A DNA stretch of 64,000 bases from Chitinophagaceae bacterium (GTDB lineage Bacteria; Bacteroidota; Bacteroidia; Chitinophagales; Chitinophagaceae), in NCBI GenBank assembly GCA_017853575.1, contig JAFMJI010000012.1, forward strand, positions 1 through 64,000, read 5' to 3'. Below, piece after piece: positions 2,896 to 8,217 of this stretch. Position 1 is the stretch's first letter, and the number at the start of each line of letters is the position of its first letter. The notes under the pieces were generated by a model. The model had not been told where the DNA came from and did not search any database. It saw nothing but the letters and a program-made list of their open reading frames with translations. A program made the position numbers and the translations under genes.

Positions 2896-4035
2896 TTAGA
2901 GCACTCCTTTGGTAGATGGCAATGCATCCTGAAATGGATCTTTTCGTATAGCCATTCGAATAGCTTTTGCAAAAGCTTTGAAAATAGCTTCAATTTTATG
3001 GTGCTCGTTTTCACCCTTGCACTGGATATTTAAATTGCATTTTGCAGCATCAGAAAATGATTTAAAGAAATGGAAGAACATTTCTGTAGGCATATCCCCT
3101 ATCTTTTCTCTTCTAAAGTCAGCATCCCATACCAACCAATTTCTCCCTCCAAAATCTATCAATACTTTTGCTTCAGCTTCATCCATTGGAAGTGCAAAAC
3201 CATAACGTTCCATGCCGCGCTTATCACTTAAACCTTTTAGAAACGCCTCACCCAATGCAATTCCAGTATCTTCTATGGTATGGTGTTCATCAATGTGTAA
3301 GTCACCTTTAACTTGAATATCTAAATCTATTTTACCGTGACGGGCAATCTGGTCGAGCATGTGATCAAAAAATCCCAAACCTGTGTGAATGGCCGATTTA
3401 CCTGTACCATCAAAATTTGCTTTGATAGAAATCTTGGTTTCGTTGGTATTGCGCTCGTGCTCAACGATTCTTAAACCATTTTTTAAAAAAGCATAAATAT
3501 CTTTCCAGCCGTCAGTTGACAATATGATATGTTTTTTCAAATCAGCAGGCAAAGATTCAATATCCACTGCTCCTGCCCCATCAGCATTGTTAATGAATAT
3601 GCATTGAGCTCCTAAATTTTTAGCGAGTTCAATATCGGTTTTTCGATCACCGATCACAAAAGAATCTTTTAGATCATATGCATCATTTCCAATATATTTT
3701 CCGAGCATTCCCAATCCAGGTTTTCTTGAATTAGAGTTTTCATGTGGCATGCTTGGGTCGATGAATATCTCATCGAATATAATACCCTCGCCTTCCAGTG
3801 TATTTAAAATATGTTGTTGTATCGGTTCGAATTGTTCTGCAGGAAAAGATGCCGTACCCAATCCATCTTGATTAGACACCATGGCCAATTCAAAATTAAA
3901 TTCAGCAGCGATTCTGGATAAATACTGAAAAACAAAAGGATAAAAAATAAGTTTATCAAAATGATCAATTTGATAAGTCGGAGGTGCTTCTTTAATCAGT
4001 GTTCCATCACGATCGATGAAGAGTACTTTTTTCAT
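2896..4035 (-). CDS. hisB: Bifunctional histidinol-phosphatase / imidazoleglycerol-phosphate dehydratase
   Basis: 379 residues with two fused domains. Residues 1-165 are a HAD phosphatase with catalytic DRDGT (D8, D10), which dephosphorylates histidinol phosphate. Residues about 185-379 are IGP dehydratase with the metal-binding motifs GFFDHMLDQIARHG, DEHHTIEDTG and EHHKIEAIFKAFAKA. The Cys-rich zinc loop of the enterobacterial phosphatase domain is missing: the equivalent segment reads IDPSMPHENSNSRKPG. It is the last gene of the operon here and overlaps hisC by 4 nt (ATGA). No hisH, hisA, hisF or hisI follows; the next gene is convergent. Confidence 0.95.
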   Translation of the reverse strand: MKKVLFIDRDGTLIKEAPPTYQIDHFDKLIFYPFVFQYLSRIAAEFNFELAMVSNQDGLGTASFPAEQFEPIQQHILNTLEGEGIIFDEIFIDPSMPHENSNSRKPGLGMLGKYIGNDAYDLKDSFVIGDRKTDIELAKNLGAQCIFINNADGAGAVDIESLPADLKKHIILSTDGWKDIYAFLKNGLRIVEHERNTNETKISIKANFDGTGKSAIHTGLGFFDHMLDQIARHGKIDLDIQVKGDLHIDEHHTIEDTGIALGEAFLKGLSDKRGMERYGFALPMDEAEAKVLIDFGGRNWLVWDADFRREKIGDMPTEMFFHFFKSFSDAAKCNLNIQCKGENEHHKIEAIFKAFAKAIRMAIRKDPFQDALPSTKGVL

Positions 4036-5081
4036 GATTTAAAAGATTTTATAGCATTCAACAGTGCTTCATTTTCTTTTGCATTACCTACTGTGATGCG
4101 AAGATTGCCTTCACAAAATTTAACATTGCTTCTGTCTCTTACAACAATACCTTGCTGCAGCAAGTAATCATATAAACGTTTTGATTCCTTGAATTGTACA
4201 AGAAGAAAATTGGTATCGGATGGGTTTATTTTAATCACATGTTCAACAGTGCGTAAGTCAACGACTAATTTTTCTCTCAATTCCACAATCTCTTTGATCA
4301 TATCATTCACCTGTCCCACTTCATCCAATGCCTTTAAAGCCAGCTCTTGAATCGGAACAGAGATGTTATATGGAGCTTTCACCTTATTCATGTATGATAT
4401 GATTTCCTTTGAAGCAAAGGCCATACCGATACGCAATCCAGCCAAACCCCAGGCCTTGCTGAGCGTCTGCAATACAATCAGATTAGGATATTCACTTAAA
4501 TCAGACAGAAAAGATTGTTGTCTGGAAAAATTAATATATGCTTCATCAACAACTACCAATCCGTCGAAATTGTTAAGAATCATCTCAATGGATTGCCTAT
4601 CTATACTATTCCCTGTTGGATTATTGGGAGTACATATCCAAATAATTTTAGTGTTGGGATGAATAGCATTTTCGAGTGCTTCCAGATCAATTTGATATTC
4701 AGCAGTCATTGGCACATAATTGATGTGTGCTCCATGAATATTTGCATACACTTCATACATCCCATAGGTTGGGGGCATTACAATGATCTCATCTTGATGC
4801 GGTTCGCAAAAACATCTCAATAAATTATCAATGGGTTCATCACTTCCATTTCCCAAGAATATATTTTCATTAGGAATTTTCTTGATAAAGGATATTTTCT
4901 CCTTCACTTTCCATTGCATGGGATCTGGGTAACGGTTGTACCATTTCATTAAAGGAGAGCCCAAAGCATTTTCATTAGCATCTAAAAAAACAGATGCTTC
5001 ACCGCTGAATTCATCCCTTGCAGAAGCATATGGAACAAGTGCTTTTATATTCTTTCTTACAATTGAGTCCAGGTTAAACAT
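4032..5081 (-). CDS. hisC: Histidinol-phosphate aminotransferase
   Basis: 349 residues, a class I/II fold-type I PLP aminotransferase of normal length. It shows NNPTG at 153-157, the PLP-pyridine aspartate in VVVDEAY (D179), the Schiff-base lysine K209 in TLSKAWGLAGLR, and the following arginine R217. It converts imidazole-acetol phosphate and glutamate to histidinol phosphate and 2-oxoglutarate. The gene sits 2 nt after hisD and overlaps hisB by 4 nt, so the genes are very probably translationally coupled. Confidence 0.95.
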   Translation of the reverse strand: MFNLDSIVRKNIKALVPYASARDEFSGEASVFLDANENALGSPLMKWYNRYPDPMQWKVKEKISFIKKIPNENIFLGNGSDEPIDNLLRCFCEPHQDEIIVMPPTYGMYEVYANIHGAHINYVPMTAEYQIDLEALENAIHPNTKIIWICTPNNPTGNSIDRQSIEMILNNFDGLVVVDEAYINFSRQQSFLSDLSEYPNLIVLQTLSKAWGLAGLRIGMAFASKEIISYMNKVKAPYNISVPIQELALKALDEVGQVNDMIKEIVELREKLVVDLRTVEHVIKINPSDTNFLLVQFKESKRLYDYLLQQGIVVRDRSNVKFCEGNLRITVGNAKENEALLNAIKSFKS

Positions 5082-5083
5082 TG

Positions 5084-6364
5084 CTATATCTTATTTAGTC
5101 TTATTTTAACTGCATTCGCATGTGCATCTAGTCCTTCAGCTTCAGCCATTATAATAATGGTATTCCCCAGTTTAGAAATTCCATTTCGGCTGATTTGCTG
5201 ATAGGTGATTTTTTTCACAAAGCTATCAACGCTCACACCACTGTATGATTTGGCAAATCCATTTGTTGGAAGCGTATGGTTTGTTCCACTTGCATAATCA
5301 CCAGCGCTTTCCGGTGTATAATTTCCTATGAAAACAGATCCTGCATTTACAATTCCATCAACAAATTGCTGAGGCTCATCAGAAGCTATAATGAGGTGCT
5401 CAGGGGCATACTGATTTACAAATGCAATTATCGAATCTGTTTCTTTCAACAAAATTGATTTACTGTTTTCCAGTGCCTTTTCAGCGATTGTTTTTCTCTC
5501 AAGTTGGGTTACCTGTATGTGCAATTCTTTTGCCGTCTCATCTATAATTTTATGATTATTTGTCACCAACATTACCTGTGAATCAGGACCATGTTCTGCC
5601 TGCGCCAATAAATCTGCCGCGATAAATGCAGGAACAGCTGTATCATCAGCGATGATGCATACTTCACTCGGACCAGCCGGCATGTCAATTGCCATACCAT
5701 CCAATTGAACGAGTTGTTTTGCAGCAGTCACATATTGGTTACCCGGACCAAAAATCTTATCCACTTTAGCAATTGATTCAGTACCATATGCCATTGCCGC
5801 AATTGCTTGCGCACCACCTGCCTTATAAATTTCTTTTACACCAACTAAACTTGCTGCGTATAATATGGCAGGGTGAATTTGTCCATCTTTTCCAGCAGGA
5901 GTTGATAATACAATTTGTTTACATCCTAAGATTTGCGCTGGAATTCCTAACATCAGCACTGTTGAGAACAGAGGTGCAGAGCCTCCAGGAATATAAAATC
6001 CAACCCGTTGAATAGGAACAGATTTTCTCCAACAGTAAACACCTTCACTTGTTTCAATTTTCTTGGTTACTTCAATTTGTTGGGTGTGAAATTTAGTAAT
6101 GTTTTGATGAGCACGTAAAATCGCTTGTTGTAATTCAACAGAAATTTTTCTCTCAGCGTCTTTGATTTCCTTCTCTGTAACCAACAGTTTACGCGGAGAA
6201 AATCCATCAAATTTTTTTGAGAACGATTTTACTGAAGCATCCCCTTTCATTTTTACCTGCTGTAAAATTTTTGAAACTGTTTTATGCAAAGGTGCTTGAT
6301 CGATAACGGGCCTTTGCACTAATTCAGTCCACTGCTGAAACGATGGTTCTTGAAATATCTGCAT
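5084..6364 (-). CDS. hisD: Histidinol dehydrogenase
   Basis: 426 residues, full length. Visible motifs are GFYIPGGSAPLFSTV near 122-136, FGPGNQYVTAAK near 205-216, the zinc-site segment LLAQAEHGPDS (Q255, H258) and the catalytic pair E322-H323 in YAPEHL. It oxidises histidinol to histidine in two NAD-dependent steps, the last steps of the pathway. It lies 3 nt after hisG and 2 nt before hisC in the same operon. Confidence 0.96.
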   Translation of the reverse strand: MQIFQEPSFQQWTELVQRPVIDQAPLHKTVSKILQQVKMKGDASVKSFSKKFDGFSPRKLLVTEKEIKDAERKISVELQQAILRAHQNITKFHTQQIEVTKKIETSEGVYCWRKSVPIQRVGFYIPGGSAPLFSTVLMLGIPAQILGCKQIVLSTPAGKDGQIHPAILYAASLVGVKEIYKAGGAQAIAAMAYGTESIAKVDKIFGPGNQYVTAAKQLVQLDGMAIDMPAGPSEVCIIADDTAVPAFIAADLLAQAEHGPDSQVMLVTNNHKIIDETAKELHIQVTQLERKTIAEKALENSKSILLKETDSIIAFVNQYAPEHLIIASDEPQQFVDGIVNAGSVFIGNYTPESAGDYASGTNHTLPTNGFAKSYSGVSVDSFVKKITYQQISRNGISKLGNTIIIMAEAEGLDAHANAVKIRLNKI

Positions 6365-6367
6365 AAA

Positions 6368-7234
6368 TTATAAAATCATTTTTTCAATTGGCACCACAAG
6401 GATTCCCTCAGCACCAGCCAATTTGAGTTTTTCAATTTTATCCCAAAACTCATCTTCACTCAACACACTGTGCACACTGCTCCATCCTGTTTCTGCCAAA
6501 GGCAATACAGATGGACTTTTCATGCCAGGTAGCAAAGAGATGATTTCAGAAAGTTTTTCATTGGGAGCATTCATCAACACATATTTGTTCTTCTTGGCTT
6601 TTTTAACAGCTCTTATTCTAAACAATAATTTTTCTAACACTTGTTGTTGCTCTACAGAAAGCTGCTTGTTCGAAACCAACACAGCTTGAGAATCCAAAAT
6701 GACTTCAGCTTCTTGTAAGCCATTCATAAACAAAGTACCTCCGCTGCTTACCAAATCAACTACAACATCAGACAAACCAATTCCAGGAGCAATTTCAACA
6801 GAACCACTTATTTCATGTACCGTTGCATTGATGTTATTTTTTTTCAAATAGTCTTGCACGATGTGTGGGTAACTGGTTGCAATCCTCTTTCCTTCAATTG
6901 ATTTTGATCCTTCATATTTTACAGATTTGGGCAATGCAATGGATAGTCGGCATTTACCAAAGCCAAGTGCTTCAACCGTTTCCACTTTGCTGTTCTTTTC
7001 TGCAAGTACGTTTTGTCCAACAATCCCCAAATCAGCCACACCGTCCTGCACATATTCCGGAATATCATCATCCCTCAGAAAAAATACCTCTATTGGAAAA
7101 TTTTCCGAAACAGTCCTCAACCTGTCTTTTACATTGCGGAGATCGATGCCACATTCTTTTAAAAGATGTATTGAATCATCTGACAATCTGCCAGACTTCT
7201 GAATTGCAATTCTCAATACTGTTTCATTTTTCAT
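6368..7234 (-). CDS. hisG: ATP phosphoribosyltransferase, long form
   Basis: 288 residues, the long HisG form with a C-terminal ACT-like regulatory domain that normally gives feedback inhibition by histidine. The N-terminus LRIAIQKSGRLSDDS and the PRPP-binding region around GLSDVVVDLVSSGGTL are typical. The C-terminal part from about 210 (NKYVLMNAPNEKL, ILVVPIEKM) matches the regulatory domain. It catalyses the first step, ATP plus PRPP to phosphoribosyl-ATP. It is the first structural gene of the operon, starting 17 nt after the U-run of the leader terminator, so attenuation would control it directly. Confidence 0.95.
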   Translation of the reverse strand: MKNETVLRIAIQKSGRLSDDSIHLLKECGIDLRNVKDRLRTVSENFPIEVFFLRDDDIPEYVQDGVADLGIVGQNVLAEKNSKVETVEALGFGKCRLSIALPKSVKYEGSKSIEGKRIATSYPHIVQDYLKKNNINATVHEISGSVEIAPGIGLSDVVVDLVSSGGTLFMNGLQEAEVILDSQAVLVSNKQLSVEQQQVLEKLLFRIRAVKKAKKNKYVLMNAPNEKLSEIISLLPGMKSPSVLPLAETGWSSVHSVLSEDEFWDKIEKLKLAGAEGILVVPIEKMIL

Positions 7235-7251
7235 TGTTCATCATTTAAAAT

Positions 7252-7277
7252 AAAAAAGGCTTACCAACGGCAAGCCT
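7252..7277 (-). terminator. his operon attenuator: terminator hairpin with competing antiterminator
   Basis: On the minus strand AGGCTTGCC-GTT-GGTAAGCCT forms a 9-bp stem (one G-U pair) followed by a run of Ts (7257-7252), just before hisG. AGCCT at 7303-7299, directly after the leader stop, can pair with AGGCT at 7277-7273 (the terminator's left arm) as an antiterminator. TCACC within the His codons (7330-7326) can pair with GGTGA at 7307-7303. These are the three alternating pairings of classical translation-coupled attenuation. Pairings were judged by eye. Confidence 0.85.
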
Positions 7278-7302
7278 GTATAATGTACATACCAAGATAG
7301 GC

Positions 7303-7353
7303 TCACCTCTTAGGAGAGATATGGTGGTGATGTTTGTTTAAAAATACTGACAT
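7303..7353 (-). CDS. hisL: his operon leader peptide (16 aa, four consecutive His)
   Basis: The ORF reads MSVFLNKHHHHISPKR then TGA. Codons 8-11 are CAT CAC CAC CAT. It lies between a strong promoter and the attenuator hairpin ahead of hisG. A ribosome starved for charged His-tRNA would stall on this run, cover the TCACC arm and favour the antiterminator, as in enterobacterial hisL. The sequence itself is unrelated to the enterobacterial peptide. The ATG is only 4 nt downstream of the -7 box, so the mRNA probably starts at or next to the start codon. Confidence 0.85.
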   Translation of the reverse strand: MSVFLNKHHHHISPKR

Positions 7354-7357
7354 GTTG

Positions 7358-7389
7358 CAAAGGTAAGATTCAAAAACATAATAGCCAAA
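7358..7389 (-). promoter_or_regulatory. his operon promoter
   Basis: On the minus strand TTTG (7389-7386), a 20-nt spacer and TACCTTTG (7365-7358) match the Bacteroidota primary sigma consensus perfectly. The predicted start of transcription falls within a few nt of the leader ATG at 7353. The promoter lies back to back with the GH16 gene. Confidence 0.75.
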
Positions 7390-7413
7390 AAGGGAAAATC
7401 ATTACCTTGGGGA

Positions 7414-8217
7414 ATGAAAAAAACGATGGCTTTCCCACCCCTCTCATTAGCACTTATCAGCATATTATTTATCTTATCTCCAATGCATTCGTCTTCCCAA
7501 TGGAAGTTGGTTTGGAGTGATGAATTCAAGAAAGATGGACTCCCCGATCCAGCAAAATGGGATTATGACATTGGAGGCAGTGGATGGGGAAACAACGAAC
7601 TCCAATATTATACCATGGCCAGAAAAGAAAACGCAAGAATTGAAAATGGCAAACTGATCATTGAGGCACACCGTGAGCCATTTGAAGGAAAAGAATATAC
7701 TTCCGCCAGATTGGTTACGAGAGATATCGCAACCTGGTCAAGCGGAAAGATTGAGGTGAGTGCAAAACTTCCCTCAGGATTGGGCACATGGCCAGCGATT
7801 TGGATGTTGGCAAATACAAATCCTTTAAAATGGCCAGATGATGGTGAAATTGATATCATGGAGCATGTTGGGTATGATCAAGGTGTGGTTCATGCATCTG
7901 TGCATACTAAAAAATACAACCATATCATAGGTACTCAAAAGACATCTAGAATCAATGTAGCAGATTGCTCAACAAATTTTCACCGTTATCAATTGGAGTG
8001 GAACAACGACAGTCTTAGGATTGGCATTGACGACAATTATTATTACAGTTTCAAAAATGAAAATACCGGATATGATGTTTGGCCTTTGACAAATAAATTT
8101 TATCTCCTACTGAATCTTGCTGTTGGTGGCAACTGGGGTGGACAAAAAGGTGTTGCAACAGATATTTGGCCGAGGAGAATGGAAGTTGATTATGTACGTG
8201 TTTATCAAAAGAAATAA
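7414..8217 (+). CDS. Secreted glycoside hydrolase family 16 (beta-glucanase / laminarinase type)
   Basis: 267 residues. A signal peptide (about 1-29, ending SSSQ) is followed by a single GH16 jelly-roll domain. The catalytic signature is GEIDIMEHVGY with nucleophile E145, D147 and acid/base E150. The upstream WKLVWSDEF, NNELQYYT and the C-terminal YVRVYQKK are typical of bacterial laminarinase-like GH16. It probably cleaves beta-1,3 or mixed-linked glucans outside the cell or in the periplasm; substrate is inferred from family only. The M1 peptidase gene follows after 10 nt. TACCTTGG (7403-7410) ends 3 nt before the ATG and could be a degenerate -7 box. Confidence 0.9.
   Translation: MKKTMAFPPLSLALISILFILSPMHSSSQWKLVWSDEFKKDGLPDPAKWDYDIGGSGWGNNELQYYTMARKENARIENGKLIIEAHREPFEGKEYTSARLVTRDIATWSSGKIEVSAKLPSGLGTWPAIWMLANTNPLKWPDDGEIDIMEHVGYDQGVVHASVHTKKYNHIIGTQKTSRINVADCSTNFHRYQLEWNNDSLRIGIDDNYYYSFKNENTGYDVWPLTNKFYLLLNLAVGGNWGGQKGVATDIWPRRMEVDYVRVYQKK

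Follow-up and report, generated by a model that had tools for sequence, protein, structure and literature searches.

The leader region of the histidine operon

The window, a stretch of 64,000 nucleotides, encodes histidine biosynthesis genes on its minus strand, arranged downstream of a short leader in the order hisGDC(NB). The first gene, hisG (6368..7234), encodes the long form of ATP phosphoribosyltransferase (Pfam HisG, 6.1e-54, plus HisG_C) and is followed by hisD (5084..6364; Pfam Histidinol_dh, 1.6e-167), a putative hisC (4032..5081), and a putative hisNB fusion (2896..4035), the latter two named by reading their translations. The nearest relatives of hisG are Chitinophagaceae, and the best among the matches listed, from a 'Parafilimonas sp.' MAG, shares 90% identity. 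The window's family (f1) was called Chitinophagaceae from these relatives, bearing out the Bacteroidota host proposed by an earlier inspection of the letters and open reading frames (hereafter, the sequence-only reading).

The promoter, leader ORF, and terminator named in that reading are all present on the minus strand. A TTTG element at -33 (7386..7389) lies 20 nt upstream of the -7 box TACCTTTG (7358..7365), which we assigned by the consensus TAnnTTTG and its published position, -12 to -5 (PMC9723704). CAAC is the sole sequence between this box and the leader ATG, and the 4-nt gap places the predicted transcription start at the A of that ATG (7353). The leader ORF, MSVFLNKHHHHISPKR-stop, comprises 16 codons (7303..7353, with TGA at 7305-7303) with no predicted 5' UTR, and its four His codons (7321..7332) form region 1, the putative sensor.

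Pairing, spacing, and alignment analyses divide the rest of the leader into three further regions. Region 2, GGTGAGCCT (7299..7307), holds the leader stop codon TGA and is the predicted 5' arm of an antiterminator; region 3, AGGCTTGCC (7269..7277), can pair with either region 2 or region 4; and region 4, GGTAAGCCT plus a T-run (7247..7265), forms the 3' half of an intrinsic terminator. The terminator hairpin (7277-7257) has 9 bp and a 3-nt loop and is followed by the T-run. Region 4 is nearly a copy of region 2, and the two compete for pairing with region 3. The AGCCT/AGGCT antiterminator suggested by the sequence-only reading does pair, as one end of a longer helix: the full antiterminator is 9 bp, GGTGAGCCT (7307-7299) with AGGCTTGCC (7277-7269).

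Scans of the region and genome returned few other candidates. A terminator scan of 601 bp on both strands gave three sites, including the leader hairpin, with shuffles averaging 0.5. A sigma-70 promoter scan of the leader region gave no match on the minus strand, as expected in Bacteroidota. Scanning approximately 459 kb of the 2.32 Mb genome (395 kb in stretches and the window itself) for the promoter, a gap of 3–8 nt, a short ORF, and a terminator yielded three matches: the his leader, a trp leader, and a match at the 3' end of an unrelated gene (L277), which we rejected as a leader, its ORF being a chance one at the gene end. On the other side of the leader, a divergent GH16-family gene begins with an ATG at 7414, leaving 60 bp (7354-7413) between it and the his leader ATG; the sequence upstream of this gene, TACCTTGG-GGA-ATG, could likewise give a very short leader. 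The leader stop and the hisG ATG (7234) are separated by 68 nt, and at this distance reinitiation from the leader onto hisG is not favoured; a survey of reinitiation places the Bacteroidetes peak at 11–14 bp (PMC4833913).

Conservation of the leader and spacing of its promoter

The sequence-only reading had proposed looking in related genomes for a short ORF with at least three His codons upstream of hisG. Such a leader, defined as an ORF that begins with ATG, lies no more than 450 nt upstream, and has three or more His in a stretch of 7 residues, precedes hisG at 78 of 80 related loci, the best 80 among at least 513. The two without one are L027 and L022, the latter having just 5 nt of contig before the match; some of the 78 leaders are weak, for example that of L088, which has no terminator. 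Applied in the window's family to 92 regions upstream of trpE, ilvD, pheA, and thrA, the identical rule found a His ORF in 2. The His leader before hisG is not due to chance. The run of His codons is kept across the related loci and the flanking codons differ. Further afield, His-rich ORFs were found in 23 of 29 loci (L090–L118) and, under a permissive rule (901-nt loci, other start codons allowed), in all 40 of a further set from a phylum search (L119–L158), several of them doubtful, the 40 loci being hand-picked and without a matched control.

An intrinsic terminator is present in 76 of 79 leaders (the window plus the 78 found among the best 80 of at least 513 loci). Two features of a his-type attenuator, a short leader ORF rich in His codons and an intrinsic terminator between it and the first structural gene, are present here.

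In 38 of these 79 leaders, exactly 4 nt lie between the TAnnTTTG box and the leader ATG; the loci being related, these do not amount to 38 independent cases. The remainder have gaps of 5–11 nt (24/79) or 14–37 nt (9/79) or carry no strict box (8/79). Where several in-frame ATGs occur, the one nearest a box was taken, a choice that favours short gaps and on which L012–L015 depend. The gap of 4 stays constant while the linker bases vary. Mapped onto a HisG tree, it occurs in all 12 rows of the window's clade (SH-aLRT 99), in all 22 scored rows of a second clade of 23 rows (SH-aLRT 99), and in five other rows. Twelve changes are required to place the three gap classes on this tree, a quick one built without bootstrap in which 41 of 107 inner branches are left open. 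The gap-4 layout is, judged by these spacings, a clade trait, with other loci predicted to have short or ordinary leaders. An extension of leaderless leaders to the whole phylum was rejected: in f5, another family in the class, gap 4 occurs in none of 17 His leaders, seven of which have no strict box, one a gap of 7, and nine gaps of 17–36.

Ordinary genes rarely show this spacing. In the sampled part of the window's genome, 101 of 375 ORFs of at least 120 aa have a box within 300 nt of their first ATG, with gap 4 in five and gap 0–10 in 16; allowing any ATG of the first 90 nt gives five and 19, respectively. In a second control, which includes the target genes, the related loci contain 582 ORFs of 120 aa or longer; 28 of these carry a box within 120 nt, with gap 4 in one and gap 0–10 in three.

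Published promoter mapping gives the gap its meaning. In F. psychrophilum, TAnnTTTG occupies positions -12 to -5 (PMC9723704), and in F. johnsoniae the box of probable promoters is separated from the start site by 4 or 5 nt (PMC6847099). If the window's organism behaves alike, a gap of 4 puts +1 on the A of the ATG. The leaderless start predicted by the sequence-only reading is supported by both the gap in 38 of 79 leaders and this mapping in Flavobacterium, and by analogy with the latter the leader ORF is predicted, with good support, to be leaderless; a start site a few nt off would give a leader of 1–3 nt. The AUG start codon has no ribosome binding site upstream, as is characteristic of leaderless mRNA. 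That reading had treated the missing Shine-Dalgarno site as part of what is unusual here; none precedes the leader ATG, but this is normal for Bacteroidota, whose ribosomes do not use Shine-Dalgarno pairing (PMC6847099).

The alternative to weigh at this point is a genuine attenuator whose transcript begins upstream of the predicted site, by a few nt or by more, and carries an ordinary short 5' UTR. Few of the Bacteroidota mRNAs that have been mapped are leaderless: 5.5% of 890 mRNAs in F. psychrophilum (PMC9723704), with approximately 3.7% of 5' UTRs shorter than 10 nt in B. thetaiotaomicron (PMC7366714) and 87% of leaders longer than 10 nt, hence 13% of at most 10 nt, in F. johnsoniae (PMC6847099). 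The related loci with gaps of 5–11 or 14–37 would also have some nucleotides before the ATG. Against this stand the gap of 4 in every scored row of two clades despite varying linker bases, the position of TAnnTTTG as mapped in Flavobacterium (-12 to -5, or 4–5 nt from the start), and the mere 60 bp between the leader ATG and the divergent gene at 7414. We consider an ordinary 5' UTR at this locus unlikely.

Predicted competing hairpins and modelled ribosome positions

Sixty-one of the leaders could be aligned. For the terminator, 99.3% of the alignment cells are paired, and three of its pairs are doubly changed. For regions 2 and 3 the figure is 97.5%, a percentage favoured by the omission of 18 of the 79 leaders (three without a terminator, eight with region 2 misplaced, that is, upstream of the stop or otherwise placed, and seven too divergent), compared with 18.6–55.3% when the two are slid against each other. 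Among the same 61 leaders the antiterminator shows no doubly changed pair, only one-sided changes, and in one control (a) the count of doubly changed pairs does not separate it from shuffles. Support for the antiterminator therefore comes from conserved pairing, spacing, and energy rather than from covariation. The sequence of region 2 is GG-TAA-GCY, GG-TAG-GCY, or GG-TGA-GCY in most relatives, with matching conservation of the terminator arm GGCTTAC; G-U pairing lets all three stop codons pair with much the same arm.

The spacing between sensor and switch is also largely constant. Measured between their first nucleotides, the last His codon and region 2 are 16 nt apart in 52 of 68 loci, with a range of 15–19 nt covering 62 of 68, counted without the eight of 76 loci in which region 2 was not found and including L019, whose assignment is apparently wrong by a few nt. 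A ribosome covers approximately 12–13 nt ahead of its A-site codon, so stalling at the last His codon would just free region 2, and a ribosome at the stop codon would cover it. Relative to the stop codon, region 2 starts 2 nt before it in 53 of 68 loci, 9 nt before it in six, and 1–4 nt after its first base in nine. That the stop codon must lie within region 2 is a weakened idea as a constraint in itself, since 15 of 68 loci place region 2 elsewhere relative to the stop; in 10 of these 15 it is still 15–18 nt from the last His codon.

Folding models agree with this geometry. When the nucleotides under a stalled ribosome are blocked and region 3 has just been made, the window's leader folds into the 9-bp antiterminator (-15.1 kcal/mol); with the nucleotides under a ribosome at the stop blocked, the terminator forms. 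By loose pair counts over the 38 gap-4 loci, the antiterminator forms on stalling in 36 and the terminator at the stop in all 38. A loose fold test of this kind (at least 6 pairs) does not discriminate, being passed by 75 of 76 loci and also by 897 of 1520 shuffled spacers, and it was therefore replaced by a test of unbroken helices and energy. With a modelled ribosome on the last His codon, an unbroken helix of at least 8 between spacer and terminator arm is found in 64 of 76 loci compared with 161 of 3800 shuffles, and the modelled energy averages -16.8 kcal/mol compared with -8.4 kcal/mol in shuffled spacers, falling below all 50 shuffles in 63 of 76 loci. As modelled, antiterminator and terminator would be mutually exclusive, the 5' arm of the antiterminator being left free by a stalled ribosome and covered by one that has reached the end. 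When the full transcript is folded, the terminator wins even if the ribosome is stalled, so any choice of the antiterminator would have to be made kinetically.

Attenuation by a run of His codons is textbook knowledge, and conservation and geometry strongly support the proposal of the sequence-only reading that this locus is a ribosome-mediated attenuator of the his type. Combining the switch with the promoter spacing, we infer that it is very probably a ribosome-mediated transcription attenuator of hisGDC(NB) whose sensor ORF lies at the 5' end of the RNA. Leader translation, stalling, and the response to histidine would, as we picture them, proceed as follows. RNA polymerase would start at the A of the leader AUG, and a ribosome would load onto this 5'-terminal AUG with RNA polymerase still close. 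If His-tRNA is scarce, the ribosome would stall on the His run with its front edge just short of region 2, region 2 would pair with region 3, and RNA polymerase would read into hisG. If His-tRNA is ample, the ribosome would reach the stop and cover region 2, leaving regions 3 and 4 to pair and transcription to end. Should no ribosome load, the His codons would be paired to the stretch downstream of region 2, and here too the terminator would form.

A different possibility is a constitutive element, either a simple terminator or a site for an RNA-binding protein, in which the His codons would be incidental. Conservation of the terminator arm GGCTTAC is unusually strong, as it might be for a protein site, yet it follows from pairing with region 2, which usually holds the stop codon. 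Moreover, the His run is kept where flanking codons vary, the 16-nt ruler is measured from the last His codon, and parallel leaders precede other biosynthetic genes, Phe/Tyr leaders before pheA (23/23) and Trp leaders before trpE (23/24). A constitutive element is accordingly very improbable. Least probable of all, to the point of being scarcely credible, is control of hisG by a T-box, riboswitch, or other ligand-binding leader: T-boxes are known to control his genes in other phyla (PMC9413887), but the leader RNA is only approximately 100 nt, no Rfam family reaches its gathering threshold anywhere in the window, and at a loose E-value positions 7200-7450 give no credible match, RF00514 (His_leader) included.

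Other amino-acid leaders and known systems

We applied simple codon rules to 30 genomes of the window's family to look for leaders before other biosynthetic genes; the counts for trpE, ilvD, and thrA leave out weaker trpE-like, ilvD-like, and aspartokinase matches. A Phe/Tyr-rich leader precedes pheA at 23 of 23 loci, with a gap of 4–9 in 18, and a Trp leader, mostly WWWHTNS, precedes trpE at 23 of 24 full-length loci, with a gap of 4–7 in 17 of 23 when the first T of the box is left free (in only six with the strict box). Branched-chain leaders before ilvD (9/23 loci, or 8/23 by a second rule) and Thr/Ile leaders before thrA (12/22) are less frequent, and their gaps to the nearest box in this family are 8–35. 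The window's own genome has a pheA leader, MSTRSNWYSFYFYFYFTSRPGAHC, with gap 4, and a trpE leader, MKLFNTNNGWHTIS, with a single Trp codon, gap 5, and a weaker box, CAATTTTG.

Several observations accompany these counts. The one Trp codon in MKLFNTNNGWHTIS (L291, preceding trpE; locus L181) stands in a context that in most relatives holds WWW and is possibly a weakened sensor. The nearest box reads.AnnTTCG instead of.AnnTTTG in five of eight branched-chain and six of 12 Thr leaders (L189–L211, L242–L263), which have longer gaps, and also in five of 23 trp, one of 79 his, and none of 23 phe leaders. Upstream of leuA-leuB-ilvD in the window's genome (L290, 2390-2561, the leuA-like gene named by eye), no branched-chain leader was seen by eye, unlike some relatives, which do carry such leaders before ilvD.

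A second lineage has His leaders as well. In the order reached from the Acidobacteriota loci L079, L073, and L081, a His-rich leader precedes hisG at 18 of 18 long-form hisG loci (L292–L309; five short hisG matches, L310–L314, were left out of the count). A TTGC[AG] -35-like element begins 39–41 nt before the ATG in 13 of the 18, suggesting a nearly leaderless transcript, with a leader of 0–5 nt, from an unrelated promoter type; only one of the 18 has a recognizable intrinsic terminator. We raise tentatively, as a reading that may well prove wrong, the idea that outside enterobacteria leader-peptide attenuators have convergently acquired a 5'-terminal AUG under selection, the published cases in Actinobacteria and Sinorhizobium included. 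On the same tentative footing, most leaders for his, phe, and trp in the window's family would be leaderless or nearly so, and few ordinary genes would be, as suggested by gaps of 4–11 in 62 of 79 his, 4–9 in 18 of 23 phe, and, with the relaxed box, 4–7 in 17 of 23 trp leaders. Such a placement of the sensor ORF would let a ribosome load at once and stay near RNA polymerase in a phylum that makes no use of Shine-Dalgarno pairing. With the sensor ORF apparently at the first base of the RNA, the leader would be a natural reporter for Bacteroidota initiation on a 5'-terminal AUG, and the 16-nt ruler and the stop codon inside the antiterminator arm lead to precise, easily tested predictions.

A 2013 survey proposed that the attenuator motifs in Rfam may stem from gamma-proteobacteria with very few transfers (PMC3766115). 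Set against that picture, a compact, differently built his attenuator, along with Phe/Tyr and Trp leaders, is found across a Bacteroidota family. An earlier paper stated that no leader-peptide system was known outside Proteobacteria and Actinobacteria before its own case in Firmicutes (2010; PMC2965389). Among the titles and abstract openings of the matches listed from the openly accessible literature, none describes a Bacteroidota his attenuator or its leaderless start, and in a study of his genes in the superphylum the word 'leader' is absent from the text (PMC8305728). Leader-like sORFs in Bacteroidota are mentioned in PMC7366714. Closest in phylum is a 2021 report of strong clues for leader-peptide attenuation before amino-acid operons in F. 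psychrophilum (PMC9723704), the relevant passage of which names no his leader and makes no statement about leaderless starts.

The enterobacterial hisL leader (RF00514) likewise consists of a short ORF with consecutive His codons and alternative antiterminator and terminator structures upstream of hisG. The window's leader differs in being a simple three-arm switch that matches no Rfam family, with a predicted 5'-terminal AUG, a TTTG/TAnnTTTG promoter, and the stop codon inside the antiterminator arm.

For translation from the very 5' end, which the sequence-only reading had singled out as unusual, the combination with a leader peptide has published precedents in Actinobacteria and Sinorhizobium (PMC8079986, PMC11857589, PMC7298713), and it is thus not unprecedented. 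In Streptomyces lividans, the leader peptides of leuL, ilvL, and trpL1 are made from leaderless transcripts (PMC8079986), as is that of ilvBNC in Corynebacterium glutamicum (PMC11857589). These systems share with the window a leaderless leader peptide and an operon attenuated by ribosome position; they belong to another phylum and promoter type, and in the accessible text their leaders are for Leu, Ilv, Trp, Ala, Thr, and Met, with none for hisG. The C. glutamicum hisEG transcript is itself leaderless, and the part of the paper available mentions no leader peptide (PMC3896937). In Sinorhizobium meliloti, the 5' end of the trpL RNA begins with the ATG of the leader ORF (PMC7298713), as predicted for the window; it differs in being an alphaproteobacterial trp attenuator, the peptide of which also acts in trans. 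We accordingly regard attenuation by His runs and leaderless leader peptides elsewhere as known, and the Bacteroidota his version with its predicted leaderless start as a variation on both.
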